Shown in pieces: positions 651-5,155 of a stretch of DNA of 36,951 nt (position 1 is the first letter of the stretch; each line of letters opens with the position of its first letter). The DNA is taken from NCBI GenBank assembly GCA_021794075.1, contig JAJYRM010000035.1, positions 1 to 36,951 of the forward strand, written 5' to 3'. This DNA is from Bacteroidota bacterium (GTDB lineage Bacteria; Bacteroidota; Ignavibacteria; Kryptoniales; JAKASW01). Below the pieces are notes generated by a model that searched no databases, had not been told where the DNA came from, and saw only the letters and a list, made by a program, of their open reading frames with translations. The translations under genes and the position numbers were made by a program.

Positions 651-1103
651 CTACGCACGTATTCGTGACTCCTTGAATGCATTACCCAATGCGTGTTTGA
701 TCGCTTGATGATCTTGATATGAGAAGGTGTTCAGGTTAAGCAGAGTGGCGCTTCCATTGGTCTGGATCACTCGCGCTTTACTTGTGCCAATTTCCACGTT
801 TGCCACATCCATCCAACGGATGTTTATACCCTTGCGGAAACGCAGTTTGTAATCGATTCCCTGGTCATCTACCTTCAAATGCCATTCCGCTTTGGCAGAT
901 ACAATCACGAAAATCAATTGCACGAAACCGATGGCAATGAGTAACAGTCCGTCGTAAAAACCGAAACTCATGCCGTCATTCAAACCGCCGGCTGCAAGAG
1001 CGGTTCCATCCGAAACAAAGAAGATGCCCAAGACGATCTGGAATGCGATCAGGCGCTTGCGTCGCTTGTATCGATCCCGGAAGTCGATATTCAGCTGTTC
1101 CAT
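651..1103 (-). CDS. Small membrane protein with a PH-like C-terminal domain
   Basis: This 150-residue protein starts at ATG 1103 with a GGAG ribosome site just upstream. The N-terminus is basic (RDRYKRRKR), followed by two hydrophobic segments at about residues 18-38 and 50-70. The remaining half reads like a small beta-rich bacterial PH-type domain (EWHLKVDDQGIDYKLRF, then IRWMDVANVEI and a closing helix). This is the layout of many two-TM plus PH-domain Bacteroidota proteins of unknown role. No catalytic motif is visible. It lies just downstream of the terminator of the cobalamin operon on the same strand, so it is probably a separate transcription unit. The family assignment is by overall pattern only. 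Confidence 0.65.
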   Translation of the reverse strand: MEQLNIDFRDRYKRRKRLIAFQIVLGIFFVSDGTALAAGGLNDGMSFGFYDGLLLIAIGFVQLIFVIVSAKAEWHLKVDDQGIDYKLRFRKGINIRWMDVANVEIGTSKARVIQTNGSATLLNLNTFSYQDHQAIKHALGNAFKESRIRA

Positions 1104-1148: not shown

Positions 1149-1179
1149 AAAAAAGGGCGGGGACCACGCGAGTCCCCGC
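1149..1179 (-). terminator. Intrinsic terminator of the cobalamin operon
   Basis: On the minus strand GCGGGGAC pairs with GTCCCCGC (plus-strand positions 1157-1164 and 1172-1179) around a 7-base loop and is followed by CC and six T residues (A run at 1149-1154 on the plus strand). It sits 8 bases beyond the stop of the DUF6580 gene and closes the btuB-btuG-DUF6580 unit. Confidence 0.88.
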
Positions 1180-1187
1180 GATAGAGT

Positions 1188-1703
1188 TTATTCCTGAACT
1201 GTCTTCGGTTTCAACACGAATTTTTCCGCGGCTTCGTAGACGCCGAACATGGCCGCGCTGTAGACCAGTGTGCTCAACAGCGTGTTGCCAAAGAATGGTA
1301 TCGCCATAACGTAGCACTGTGCGAGACCGGCAAGCGTCTTCGGGTAGATCGAACCGGGCACTATCCACACCGCGAAATTTGTCGTAACGAAAAACACGAC
1401 TGCACCCACCATCGAGAGTCCGAGGAGTTTACCCGCCGACACCTTCTTCTCGAGCAGCAGGCCCATCGCGACGATGAGGATAATCGTTCCGTAGACGAAA
1501 GCCATCGTCTCTATTCCATAGAACCCGATGACAAGATCGCTGATAAGGAGCGCCGCGACCGGAACCAGGAAGGCGTATCTTTTCTTCAGGTAAGCGCCCG
1601 CGAACAACGCTATCGAAATCACGGGAGTGAAATTCGGCGCGTGAGGTATGAGTCTCGAAAAAGCCGCGAACAGAATAAGAATCAACGCTAATAGTATGCC
1701 CAT
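1188..1703 (-). CDS. DUF6580-type integral membrane protein, candidate cobalamin transporter component
   Basis: This 171-residue, very hydrophobic protein has about five or six membrane segments. Residues 15-34 (SRLIPHAPNFTPVISIALFA) and the later AGLAQCYVMAIPFFGNTLL match my memory of the DUF6580 putative transport family; size and topology resemble ECF-type S components. Start ATG 1703 follows a TGGAGG ribosome site. It is the third gene downstream of a cobalamin riboswitch, 93 bases after the BtuG-like gene, and is followed directly by a terminator, so it probably belongs to the vitamin B12 operon. No BtuC, BtuD or BtuF is present, which makes it a candidate inner-membrane step. That role is inference from context; the family is not characterised as far as I know. 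Confidence 0.75.
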   Translation of the reverse strand: MGILLALILILFAAFSRLIPHAPNFTPVISIALFAGAYLKKRYAFLVPVAALLISDLVIGFYGIETMAFVYGTIILIVAMGLLLEKKVSAGKLLGLSMVGAVVFFVTTNFAVWIVPGSIYPKTLAGLAQCYVMAIPFFGNTLLSTLVYSAAMFGVYEAAEKFVLKPKTVQE

Positions 1704-1796
1704 GGTTACCTCCAGTTTGTAAATTTATTCGTTATTTGTGTCTAAGATCGCATTCAAGAGATTATTGTTTCTGATGTATCAACTCAGATGCGCCGG

Positions 1797-2846
1797 TTAC
1801 CTTATAAAGACAATGCCGTCAGGATAAATCCCCGCGGTGAAAGACCTGTTCGTGTATTCGCCGCTTGATGTGTAAATATATACCTTGCCATCAGCCGTTC
1901 CGCTATTCGCTTTAGTAACATAAACGTCCCCCGTGGCACCGTCGGCTGCTATCGAATAAAAATTCCCGTTCATCAGGTCGCTGTTCATAATTGTACGATT
2001 CGACATGCTTAACTTAACGACGGAGCTGTCCGCAATCAAGTAAGCGACGCCATCCTGTCCGTCCATCGCGAGAGTGTGCCCTGTGAATGAGGGGATAGTT
2101 TTTCCTATAATGATCGAGTCTGTGACGGAATTCGATGACGCGCTGACAACGTAGATGGAGCCGTTGTCTCCCGGCTCGCCGGCGCAGACAACCCAGAAAT
2201 TTCCCGATCTGTCCGGCTCTACTTCAGTAGGCCCTTTGCCGACAGACACGGTCTTCACCACTTTCCTCGTTGTGGCATTTATAAGGCTCACCGTGTTTCC
2301 GCTTCCATAGCCGGAGTTTGCGACACAGACTTCACCGAAAGCACAGGCGATGCCGTAAGGTTCCGGCCCGACCGGTATGGAGTCTTGCGCCATAACCGTG
2401 TTTGAAGCAAGGTTGATTACAGAAACAGAATTTGTATACAAATCCGAAACGAAGGCGACGTTCGAAGAATTATAAAACGCGATTCGGTAAGGACTTGTCC
2501 CGCTCGGAAAGTAGACTGTCCCGACATAAAGCGCGGTGGATGCGTCCATCACAACTACCTTATCTGAATTGTTGATGACCATATACGCGTTGCCGTTATA
2601 CAGCTGTATGTCGTTGCCCACGTCGCCGAGGTTCATGCCGTTAGCTAGCTTGAACAGGTCGGACTCGGCGAAGTTGGAATCGGGAAAGTACGCGGAGAGC
2701 GACGCGTTTCCCTGGCCGTAGTTCCCCTGGTTTAAGACGTAGACCGCGACTGCCTGCGGAGTGAAATAACTCGACGAGCTTGTCGGCGCCTTCGTGCATG
2801 AGTTCAAGCCAAAGCCAAACAAAAGGGGTATCAGGAATTTTTTCAT
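1797..2846 (-). CDS. btuG: BtuG-like surface lipoprotein, YncE/DUF5074-type beta-propeller
   Basis: The chosen start is ATG 2846, giving 349 residues. It begins MKKFLIPLLFGFGLNSC, a lipoprotein signal peptide with lipobox LNSC and lipidation at Cys17. An in-frame start 39 bases further up would add a hydrophilic leader before the signal and is unlikely. The body is a run of YncE/40-residue-type propeller blades (VYVLNQGNYG, AYMVINNSDKVVVMD, VAFVSDLYTNSVSVINL, GEVCVANSGYGSGNTVSLIN, VYVTKANSG). In Bacteroides, BtuG is a propeller lipoprotein that caps BtuB and binds cobalamin with extreme affinity. Here the gene starts 10 bases after btuB, with its ribosome site overlapping the btuB stop, so translation is probably coupled. 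BtuG assignment rests on architecture plus riboswitch context. Confidence 0.83.
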   Translation of the reverse strand: MKKFLIPLLFGFGLNSCTKAPTSSSSYFTPQAVAVYVLNQGNYGQGNASLSAYFPDSNFAESDLFKLANGMNLGDVGNDIQLYNGNAYMVINNSDKVVVMDASTALYVGTVYFPSGTSPYRIAFYNSSNVAFVSDLYTNSVSVINLASNTVMAQDSIPVGPEPYGIACAFGEVCVANSGYGSGNTVSLINATTRKVVKTVSVGKGPTEVEPDRSGNFWVVCAGEPGDNGSIYVVSASSNSVTDSIIIGKTIPSFTGHTLAMDGQDGVAYLIADSSVVKLSMSNRTIMNSDLMNGNFYSIAADGATGDVYVTKANSGTADGKVYIYTSSGEYTNRSFTAGIYPDGIVFIR

Positions 2847-2856
2847 GATGTTTACC

Positions 2857-4752
2857 TTACTGATTAAATTGGATGCCGAGATCAAAATAAAATGTTCGCA
2901 GCGGCATAGGGTACTGCGGAATGACTTGGTAGTTTTCGTTAAACACGTTCTTCACCGAAATGAGCGGCCTCAGATCGAAGTGTGACAGATGTATCCGGGC
3001 GCCGGCGGAGAGATCCGCGGTTGTGAATCCTGGGAGAAATTGGTCGTTCTGAACAGTTACATATCTAAAGCTGATATATCTCATCGCCGCTGAAAATGTC
3101 AGGATCCACGGAGAGACGGCTGCCACGAGAGAGCCCTGTTCCTGTGGCAAGTATATAAGCTGTTTGTCATATGTCGGTGAATTCGGATCGGAGAGGTTGA
3201 CGGCCTGGCCGAACGAGTACGTCCCGCGCAGAGCGAGAAAGTCGCGATAGTTTACCTGAGCGCTTAACTCTATCCCTTGTGATAATGTTCTTTGATAGTT
3301 TACCGGGCGCCAGATATTTCCTGAGGAGGGTAGCCACACGATTCCGTCCCTTATATTGATCGCATAGTAATCGGCGTCAGCCTGAATATCGACCGGCTCA
3401 TGAAGGGAGAAGACAAGCCCGGCATCGTAGTTCACGGAACGCTCAGGTTTGATCGATGGATTCCCCGCCCCCGCGTAATAGAGCTCGTTGAATGTCGGTG
3501 CCCTGAAGCTTGAGCCGACGCTGGCGCGCAAGTTTACCGGAATGGATTGCACCGGCCTTATGTTCATTCCGAATTTTGGATTAAAGGTAGCTCCAAAGTC
3601 GGAATACCAGTCGATCCTTGCGCTCGGAAATATATGAACCATGGATGAGAATGGGCCTTTAAAATTGATCACACCGCTCGCGAATGCGCCAGCGCGCGTG
3701 CGGTTCTTCGGCTCCTGCATCTCGGAACTTGTTCCGTGATCCTGTTCGCCGTCAATTCCCGCGGTTCCTTTAAAATCTCGAGAGGAATAATTCAATTGAA
3801 GGCTCGGTTGGAATGATAGCATTTTATAGAAATCGTCTATGAAAAAACCGCCCGGTACAACCGCCGGTTGAACGTACCTCAGATAGCCGTAGGTAAATCC
3901 TCCCGAGGCCGAGAGGAGAAAATCACCGAGCTTCTGTTCGTGATTGATCACGGAGAATAAATCCCCATCGTATTCCCGCTCTGTCCCGACGTAGAACGGG
4001 CCCGTTACAGGGCCAGGCGTACCGCGGTTCGCGGTCATGTTGCTCACGACGATTGACGTCGACGATTCTTTTGCCGGAATAACGATCTGCGCGAACTCGT
4101 TATCGCGCACGAAATCGGCTCCATCGCGAGTCATGGGGAATGAATTCAACCCATCGCTGAAATTGAATTTGAAATCGTTTGAGGCTCGCGTCCGTTCCGC
4201 CGTTAATGTTATGGATGCGCGCCCCATCTTCTCGTTTACACTCGCACGGCTTCGCTGGTATCCATAAGAACCGGCACCGAAACTGACGCCGACATGAGGA
4301 GACTCGCTTGATGCGGTGTTAAGGTTTACAACGCCCCCCATCGCGTCAGCGCCGTAGAGGGAGCTGGAGCCGCCCTCTGAAATCTCGACGTTCCCTATTT
4401 CAGATATTGGTATCAGGAAGAGGTCAAGAACGCCGTTCTGCACGCTGTTCAATCTGACTCCGTCCATCATGAAAAGCGTTTCTTCAGCTCCCGTTCCCCT
4501 TATGCCGATTGTCGAAAGCTGCGACGGCCCGTAATCTTTCACGTACAACCCGTCGCCGTAGGACAAGATGCTGCCCAGGTTTGTGAAGCCGAGAGACGAG
4601 AGCTGTTTCACATCGAGGTCCATGACTTTTGAAGGCGAGTCTTGAGGAGTCACCGGATTTCGCGTGGAGGTGATCACGACGTCGGGCGCCCTGAAGATTC
4701 TGAGCGAGTCGGCGTTTGTGTGTATTAGCAATGTAAGAACTAATGCAAGCAT
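2857..4752 (-). CDS. btuB: TonB-dependent outer-membrane cobalamin receptor BtuB
   Basis: The protein has 631 residues, typical of BtuB-size receptors. It has a short signal peptide (about residues 1-14), a TonB box around DVVITSTR, and a plug domain (LGSILSYGDGLYVKDYG, IGIRGTGAEETLFMMDGVRLN, GSSSLYGADAMGGVVN). A beta-barrel follows, ending YPMPLRTFYFDLGIQF, the characteristic last-strand pattern of BtuB/CirA-type receptors. No SusC-type N-terminal CNA-like domain is present. The start at 4752 lies only about 12 bases from the riboswitch terminator's T-tract, and no strong ribosome site is visible. It is the first gene behind a cobalamin riboswitch, which makes cobalamin or a corrinoid the likely substrate. 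Confidence 0.93.
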   Translation of the reverse strand: MLALVLTLLIHTNADSLRIFRAPDVVITSTRNPVTPQDSPSKVMDLDVKQLSSLGFTNLGSILSYGDGLYVKDYGPSQLSTIGIRGTGAEETLFMMDGVRLNSVQNGVLDLFLIPISEIGNVEISEGGSSSLYGADAMGGVVNLNTASSESPHVGVSFGAGSYGYQRSRASVNEKMGRASITLTAERTRASNDFKFNFSDGLNSFPMTRDGADFVRDNEFAQIVIPAKESSTSIVVSNMTANRGTPGPVTGPFYVGTEREYDGDLFSVINHEQKLGDFLLSASGGFTYGYLRYVQPAVVPGGFFIDDFYKMLSFQPSLQLNYSSRDFKGTAGIDGEQDHGTSSEMQEPKNRTRAGAFASGVINFKGPFSSMVHIFPSARIDWYSDFGATFNPKFGMNIRPVQSIPVNLRASVGSSFRAPTFNELYYAGAGNPSIKPERSVNYDAGLVFSLHEPVDIQADADYYAINIRDGIVWLPSSGNIWRPVNYQRTLSQGIELSAQVNYRDFLALRGTYSFGQAVNLSDPNSPTYDKQLIYLPQEQGSLVAAVSPWILTFSAAMRYISFRYVTVQNDQFLPGFTTADLSAGARIHLSHFDLRPLISVKNVFNENYQVIPQYPMPLRTFYFDLGIQFNQ

Positions 4753-4763
4753 TCGGGTCCGGT

Positions 4764-4801
4764 TAAATAAAAAGCCCCAACCTCGGGGACGAAGTTGGGG
4801 C
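4764..4801 (-). terminator. Riboswitch-controlled intrinsic terminator before btuB
   Basis: In the transcript GCCCCAAC pairs with GTTGGGGC (plus-strand positions 4794-4801 and 4774-4781) around a 12-base loop, followed by TTTTTATTT. It lies between the riboswitch aptamer and the btuB start, as expected for transcription attenuation by cobalamin. Confidence 0.93.
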
Positions 4802-4857
4802 GAAAAAACAAAACCTGATGCTTGTTCAGCCTGAACTTAACCTCTCCCTCGAAGGTC

Positions 4858-4891
4858 GTAAGACTCCGTAGAGTCTTACTGACTCTCGGAG
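4858..4891 (-). promoter_or_regulatory. Mutually exclusive hairpins in the riboswitch expression platform
   Basis: Two strong helices share bases here. Hairpin A: GTAAGACTC (4858-4866) with GAGTCTTAC (4871-4879), nine pairs; in the transcript its loop reads UACG closed by C-G, a stable UNCG tetraloop. Hairpin B: CTCCG plus AGAGTC (4864-4868 and 4870-4875) with GACTCT plus CGGAG (4881-4891), eleven pairs and one bulge. They cannot form together. They lie between the aptamer and the terminator and may be part of the switching region. Confidence 0.55.
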
Positions 4892-4907
4892 TTGTGAATT
4901 CGAAAAA

Positions 4908-5155
4908 AGTCGCGGCAGGTCTCCTGGCTCACGGCCATTCTCGCTGTCGCCTTCCCATCCTGATTCTTCGTGGAAAAATCTGGAAAGTGGCTCAAGCATG
5001 CTCATGCCGTATACAGTTGCGGGGCAGCTCCCGTTTGGTTCCCGGTTGTTCTTCCGGTCGGGATTCCCTTTTCAGCCCGTCTGTGTTCAATTCAGACGGT
5101 CACCGTGACTTCACTGTTATTAAAGAACGCGGAATGAATTTAACCGGCACCTATC
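4908..5155 (-). ncRNA. Cobalamin (AdoCbl-type) riboswitch aptamer
   Basis: Read on the minus strand, the conserved cobalamin riboswitch elements appear in order. GGTGCC is at 5151-5146. An AAAAGGGAA segment follows, then GGGAGCTGCCCCGCAACTGT. Next come AGCCACT and GGAAGG, and finally the B12 box GAGCCAGGAGACCTGCC at 4930-4914. Spacing and order match the canonical aptamer of about 200 nt. It lies in the leader of btuB, upstream of an intrinsic terminator, so high cobalamin should switch off btuB-btuG-DUF6580. Boundaries are approximate. The 5170-5318 stretch beyond it shows nothing I can assign. Confidence 0.96.

Follow-up and report, generated by a model that had tools for sequence, protein, structure and literature searches.

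DUF6580 as a probable BtuM-like inner-membrane cobalamin importer in place of BtuCDF

The DUF6580 protein encoded behind a cobalamin riboswitch in a Bacteroidota bacterium is very probably the inner-membrane cobalamin importer that replaces BtuCDF, and it most likely acts with no ECF module involved; cobalamin binding and transport are inferred, no transport or binding data being available. For a computational case the evidence is strong, as phyletic complementarity, gene context in unrelated phyla and predicted fold agree.

The operon lies on the minus strand (1157-5122) of the window, the whole 36,951-nucleotide stretch that was analysed (contig JAJYRM010000035.1, assembly GCA_021794075.1), and is listed here in order of transcription:

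4897-5122, minus strand: cobalamin riboswitch aptamer (RF00174; 90.1 bits, E 3.3e-21, model 1-189)
4774-4801, minus strand: terminator-like hairpin between riboswitch and btuB (12 pairs, then TTTTTATTT)
2857-4752, minus strand: btuB, TonB-dependent outer-membrane B12 receptor, 631 aa (NCBIfam and PDB relatives)
1797-2846, minus strand: BtuG-like beta-propeller surface lipoprotein, 349 aa (Pfam DUF5074, PF16819; lipobox LNSC)
1188-1703, minus strand: DUF6580 (PF20221), 171 aa, predicted inner-membrane cobalamin importer (PF20221 E 1.4e-53)
1157-1179, minus strand: intrinsic-terminator-like hairpin at the operon end (9 pairs, 7 GC, then CCTTTTTT)

The riboswitch was matched over the full model, at 90.1 bits against an Rfam gathering score of 31.5. 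The leader with the terminator-like hairpin was folded at -57.3 kcal/mol (z -6.1 versus shuffles), and the hairpin at 4774-4801 is probably the expression platform of the riboswitch, a role that is inferred. For btuB, TonB-B12 was the top-ranked NCBIfam model, yet under the model cut-off, and the best solved relatives (PDB) were Bacteroides BtuB. The propeller gene was started at the ATG at 2846, not at the listed TTG at 2885, and its leader ends in the lipobox LNSC; its best PDB matches were propellers, among them chains from entries for BtuB-BtuG (8p97_B, E 5e-23; 8blw_B), and it has the marks of a BtuG surface lipoprotein, namely a YncE-like propeller related to BtuG, a lipobox and a gene adjoining btuB. 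The DUF6580 gene has a GGAGGT ribosome-binding site, and its product reached 181.9 bits against PF20221 (Pfam cut-off 27), the only Pfam family matched; PF01032, the BtuC/FecCD permease domain, gave no match. The complete cobalamin riboswitch, btuB, BtuG-like propeller lipoprotein, DUF6580 membrane protein and closing terminator named in a first-pass annotation were all recovered, and a complete B12-uptake operon is the best explanation of the locus. BtuB is combined with a surface propeller as in Bacteroides BtuB-BtuG loci (PMC10404256); unlike the window, the sampled genomes of family f20 (inferred to be Bacteroidaceae) all carry FecCD and none carries DUF6580. Past the terminator and outside the operon, a 150-aa membrane protein is encoded at 651-1103 (minus strand), with a weak DUF6560 match under the cut-off.

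The source assembly (4.53 Mb, 240 contigs, 99.8% complete) was searched for further B12 import genes. One cobalamin riboswitch was found in the whole genome, that of the DUF6580 operon, and no second one; no FecCD (BtuC-type) permease and no BtuF-type binding protein (Peripla_BP_2) was found in whole-genome searches, and a MetH activation domain was present. The searches can be taken to work because the riboswitch, FecCD, BtuF-type and MetH controls gave matches in 8, 13, 13 and 7 of 14 known genomes. A BtuCDF system encoded elsewhere is ruled out, as neither FecCD nor a BtuF-type protein is there; the earlier statement that BtuCDF is missing holds genome-wide and not at the locus alone, and the case that would have refuted the importer reading, btuCDF elsewhere under its own riboswitch, is not met. 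One EcfT was found, as part of a cassette that also supplies an S component and an ATPase and is headed by an IF-2B-like gene (L002, G000:C77:74761-78318: IF-2B-like gene, S component weakly matching PF12822, EcfT, EcfA); the IF-2B-like neighbour may hint at the substrate of this cassette.

Across the phylum, 198 genomes, drawn evenly and each at least 90% complete, were sampled, and DUF6580 (above cut-off) was counted in 81, a cobalamin riboswitch in 194, FecCD in 141 and EcfT in 53. Full-length FecCD was counted at E < 1e-30; weak partial matches (E 1e-5 to 1e-14) in 11 genomes, all DUF6580-positive, were not counted as BtuC. Full-length FecCD was found in 116/117 DUF6580-negative genomes, one genome lacking both, versus 14/81 DUF6580-positive genomes (absent in 67/81; Fisher p 2e-37, by genome). 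Since the genomes are related, the table was repeated by family, giving 20 families with FecCD only, 17 with DUF6580 only, 2 with both and 0 with neither. FecCD also includes iron and haem permeases, and its presence is no proof of BtuC; its absence excludes BtuC. The 14 genomes with both DUF6580 and FecCD count against the importer reading.

For 28 of the 87 DUF6580 genes in this sample, a same-strand cobalamin riboswitch was located upstream at a distance below 6 kb, against an expectation of about 0.1. The other 59, not behind a riboswitch, were counted against the importer reading; most of them are in genomes that have no BtuC. DUF6580 usually stands directly after btuB, and several operons read btuB-DUF6580-btuF, some in genomes without any FecCD (e.g. 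G080, G138, G069 and G007). In two genomes (G120 and G093; loci L078 and L080) one riboswitch directly precedes DUF6580 and a second precedes the next gene, a TonB-dependent receptor. In family f26, which forms a large block, DUF6580 is part of a YceI/DUF4956/HlyD locus that contains no B12 gene, a further point against the importer reading; in these genomes (L035-L067) the order BrkB-MPG-YceI-DUF6580-DUF4956-HlyD-SDR is conserved, with no riboswitch. Further DUF6580 genes adjoin sucC or manA. FecCD is absent in most genomes with DUF6580 in YceI-type, sucC or manA loci, which fits a B12 role, and another substrate is possible there. The riboswitch-linked label, mapped on a tree of 166 sequences, was clustered (27 changes versus 55 in shuffles) and spread over many branches.

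For other phyla, 84,980 species genomes were scanned with a close alignment (A2), the wide alignment (A1) being too diverse as a seed; more than 560 relatives were obtained, the best 80 were kept and 79 of these were searched. This close set is biased to the nearest relatives of the window. A cobalamin-class riboswitch was found in 47/79 loci (same strand, upstream or just downstream) and B12 genes beside DUF6580 in 13 more. A family mostly outside cobalamin loci would have refuted the reading; 60/79 loci of the close set are B12 loci, and the unbiased phylum sample, with its riboswitch excess and mostly BtuC-free remainder, does not meet that case either. Contexts vary by phylum but share the B12 theme:

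Ignavibacteria: riboswitch-propeller-btuB-DUF6580-metH
Acidobacteria and Alphaproteobacteria: btuB-COG2102-DUF6580-btuF
Gammaproteobacteria: riboswitch-btuB-DUF6580-adenosyltransferase
Omnitrophota: DUF6580-riboswitch-btuB-tonB
Patescibacteria: nrdR-nrdJ (class II ribonucleotide reductase)-AdoCbl-II riboswitch-DUF4430-DUF6580-PduO-type adenosyltransferase

Full-length FecCD was absent in 43/50 genomes of the close set (best 80 of more than 560 relatives); the Patescibacteria among them had neither full-length FecCD nor EcfT. Patescibacteria are generally held to be without an outer membrane, and DUF6580 there can therefore only act at the cytoplasmic membrane. Three of their loci (L145, L157 and L197, from Levybacteria and related Patescibacteria) combine class II ribonucleotide reductase, AdoCbl-II riboswitch, DUF6580 and cobalamin adenosyltransferase, and appear to be complete B12 salvage units in very small genomes. 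In L157 and L197 a DUF4430 gene follows the AdoCbl-II riboswitch; DUF4430 is the domain at the transcobalamin C terminus (PMC4350170). No relative was found in a plasmid collection, and a defence-system library gave no match.

An AlphaFold2 model of the protein was built on the 79-sequence alignment (from the best 80 of more than 560 relatives) and gave an all-helical membrane protein (pLDDT 95, pTM 0.89) with six membrane helices in the S-component fold, in line with the S-component-like size and topology noted at first pass. A comparison with BtuM and CbrT S components had been proposed as a check: in Foldseek searches of the PDB, BtuM with cobalamin ranked first and second (E 0.014 and 0.03; TM 0.68), followed by ECF S components, and in VIA-align BtuM (8c7p) reached Z 13.9 over 158 aligned residues (rmsd 2.9), against 9.1 to 13.2 for the other S components and 6.3 for the highest-ranking unrelated chain. 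A structure unlike any transporter would have spoken against the reading; the model is not of that kind. Helical bundles may reach middling Z by chance; this is countered by alignment of the whole protein and by an S-component family clear of the rest. Against the importer reading, the Foldseek E for BtuM is only 0.014, identity is about 15-18%, and fold sharing shows no function.

In the close set, conserved residues were found in the loop that follows helix 1 (R17, H21, N24 and P27), where helix 5 ends (T108-N109-F110 and W113), and at Y120, G126 and P136-F137; this conservation is concentrated at the place expected for a ligand. It has to be read with caution on two counts: the sequences had been retrieved by patterns that included parts of columns 104-112 and 129-138, and the PH motif of the first loop is missing in some riboswitch-linked members outside the close set. 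H21, the histidine of loop L1, was present in 78/79 sequences. No conserved cysteine was found in L3 of these 79 sequences; the sole conserved cysteine, C130, stands where the last helices begin (71/79), and 8/79 sequences contain no cysteine at all.

BtuM of Thiobacillus denitrificans (PDB 8c7p, 8ovv; PMC6072759) and DUF6580 share a small six-helix S-component fold and genes that adjoin btuB; both occur in genomes that lack BtuCDF and, for the most part, an ECF module. In BtuM, cobalt is ligated by an invariant cysteine of loop L3 (PMC6072759); DUF6580 lacks this residue and so does not share the cysteine-based ligation. BtuM was not matched among PDB sequences at E 10 with profiles of 79 and 29 sequences. 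Because both the defining cysteine and sequence kinship are missing, DUF6580 was filed as a separate family; unlike BtuM, it extends beyond Proteobacteria to Bacteroidota, Omnitrophota, Patescibacteria and Acidobacteria. BtuM enables an E. coli strain without metE, btuC and btuF, a host that has no ECF module, to grow in dependence on B12. CbrT, the S component of ECF-CbrT (PDB 6FNP; PMC5997447), has the same fold but works with an ECF module. 6FNP was the only PDB sequence match of one profile (residues 5-86, E 0.12); as it did not recur with a second profile of greater diversity, this weak match was not relied on and CbrT was rejected as a sequence relative. BtuCDF, an ABC importer, acts at the same pathway step, and a btuF-like gene sometimes follows DUF6580; DUF6580 differs in fold, lacks a FecCD domain and has no ATPase partner encoded in its operon.

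The first-pass annotation had left it open whether DUF6580 works alone or with an ECF energising module elsewhere, and the shared fold, together with the EcfT, ATPase and S component found in the window's own genome, would allow a classical S component that binds cobalamin and is driven by EcfT-EcfA encoded elsewhere. This is unlikely: EcfT was found in 5/81 DUF6580-positive versus 48/117 DUF6580-negative genomes of the phylum sample, was absent in 76/81 of the former including a genome of the same genus as the window (G039), and was absent in 42/50 genomes of the close set (8/50 with it; best 80 of more than 560 relatives). The window's genome is an exception among these mostly ECF-free genomes, which counts against the main reading; its cassette already has its own S-component gene. 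The AxxxA motif in helix 1, which docks S components on EcfT (PMC11109136), was found in only 2/79 close-set sequences. An ECF module as a necessary partner was rejected as a general rule on account of the same-genus genome and the 42/50 close-set genomes. Given genome content and the missing motif, action without an ECF module is likely, although inferred; the solitary half of the earlier alternative is favoured and the ECF half disfavoured.

It is also quite improbable that DUF6580 serves another need (cobalt, a lower-ligand base or a precursor), or that it acts in cobalamin sensing or as an accessory protein, with another, unknown protein importing B12. Some DUF6580 genes do lie in loci without B12 genes, and the S-component fold is common to receptors and MreD (PMC11109136), but complementarity with FecCD is near-perfect, DUF6580 takes the place of BtuCD beside btuF in several operons, and the context is one of salvage, not synthesis (adenosyltransferase, nrdJ, metH). 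The usual position directly behind btuB would suit a periplasmic-side or outer-membrane accessory of BtuB; this can hardly be upheld for a protein modelled as all-helical in the membrane and present without btuB in Patescibacteria, where no outer membrane is thought to exist. The proposal that DUF6580 is the inner-membrane step is supported by the absent BtuC and BtuF, complementarity, B12 loci and BtuM-like fold, with transport inferred, and DUF6580 is best read as a family of its own, made up of solitary, BtuM-like cobalamin importers.

For the importer reading, the following sequence is envisaged. When cobalamin is scarce, the riboswitch would let transcription pass the terminator; the BtuG-like lipoprotein and BtuB would bring cobalamin across the outer membrane, and DUF6580, with its predicted six-helix BtuM/S-component fold, would perform the inner-membrane step instead of BtuCDF. 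The energy source is a guess, possibly trapping by adenosylation or enzyme binding, an idea suggested by the adenosyltransferase, nrdJ or metH genes that often adjoin DUF6580. More broadly, it is likely, though held less firmly than the importer role itself, that DUF6580 forms a second family of cobalamin importers with the S-component fold, ECF-independent and specialised independently, and is the main inner-membrane B12 transporter in many Bacteroidota and several other phyla, among them Patescibacteria that have a B12-dependent ribonucleotide reductase, and that it may place the conserved L1 histidine H21, not the cysteine of BtuM, at cobalt.

No paper mentioning DUF6580 was found in the literature collection searched, and none was found combining candidate phyla radiation, cobalamin, ribonucleotide reductase and riboswitch. 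Some members carry the RefSeq label putative transport protein; a general transport role may therefore have been suspected before, but no such suggestion was found for B12. If the reading is true, DUF6580 fills the missing-importer gap in 17/39 sampled families of the phylum and in several other phyla, B12 salvage becomes readable from genomes, and a second family is available for asking how a protein of S-component fold moves a large vitamin without an ATPase.

Some further arrangements were seen at individual loci. In L134, L139, L140, L163, L190 and L198, DUF6580 is flanked by two cobalamin riboswitches at a spacing of about 1 kb, one preceding DUF6580 and the other the next gene. In L119 (G171:C123) the DUF6580 gene that follows btuB is broken into two frames, and a second copy of DUF6580 is on C38 of that genome. 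COG2102 (Diphthami_syn_2), sometimes with a Sir2 gene, recurs in riboswitch-btuB-DUF6580 operons (L089, L093, L073, L128, L130 and L195).
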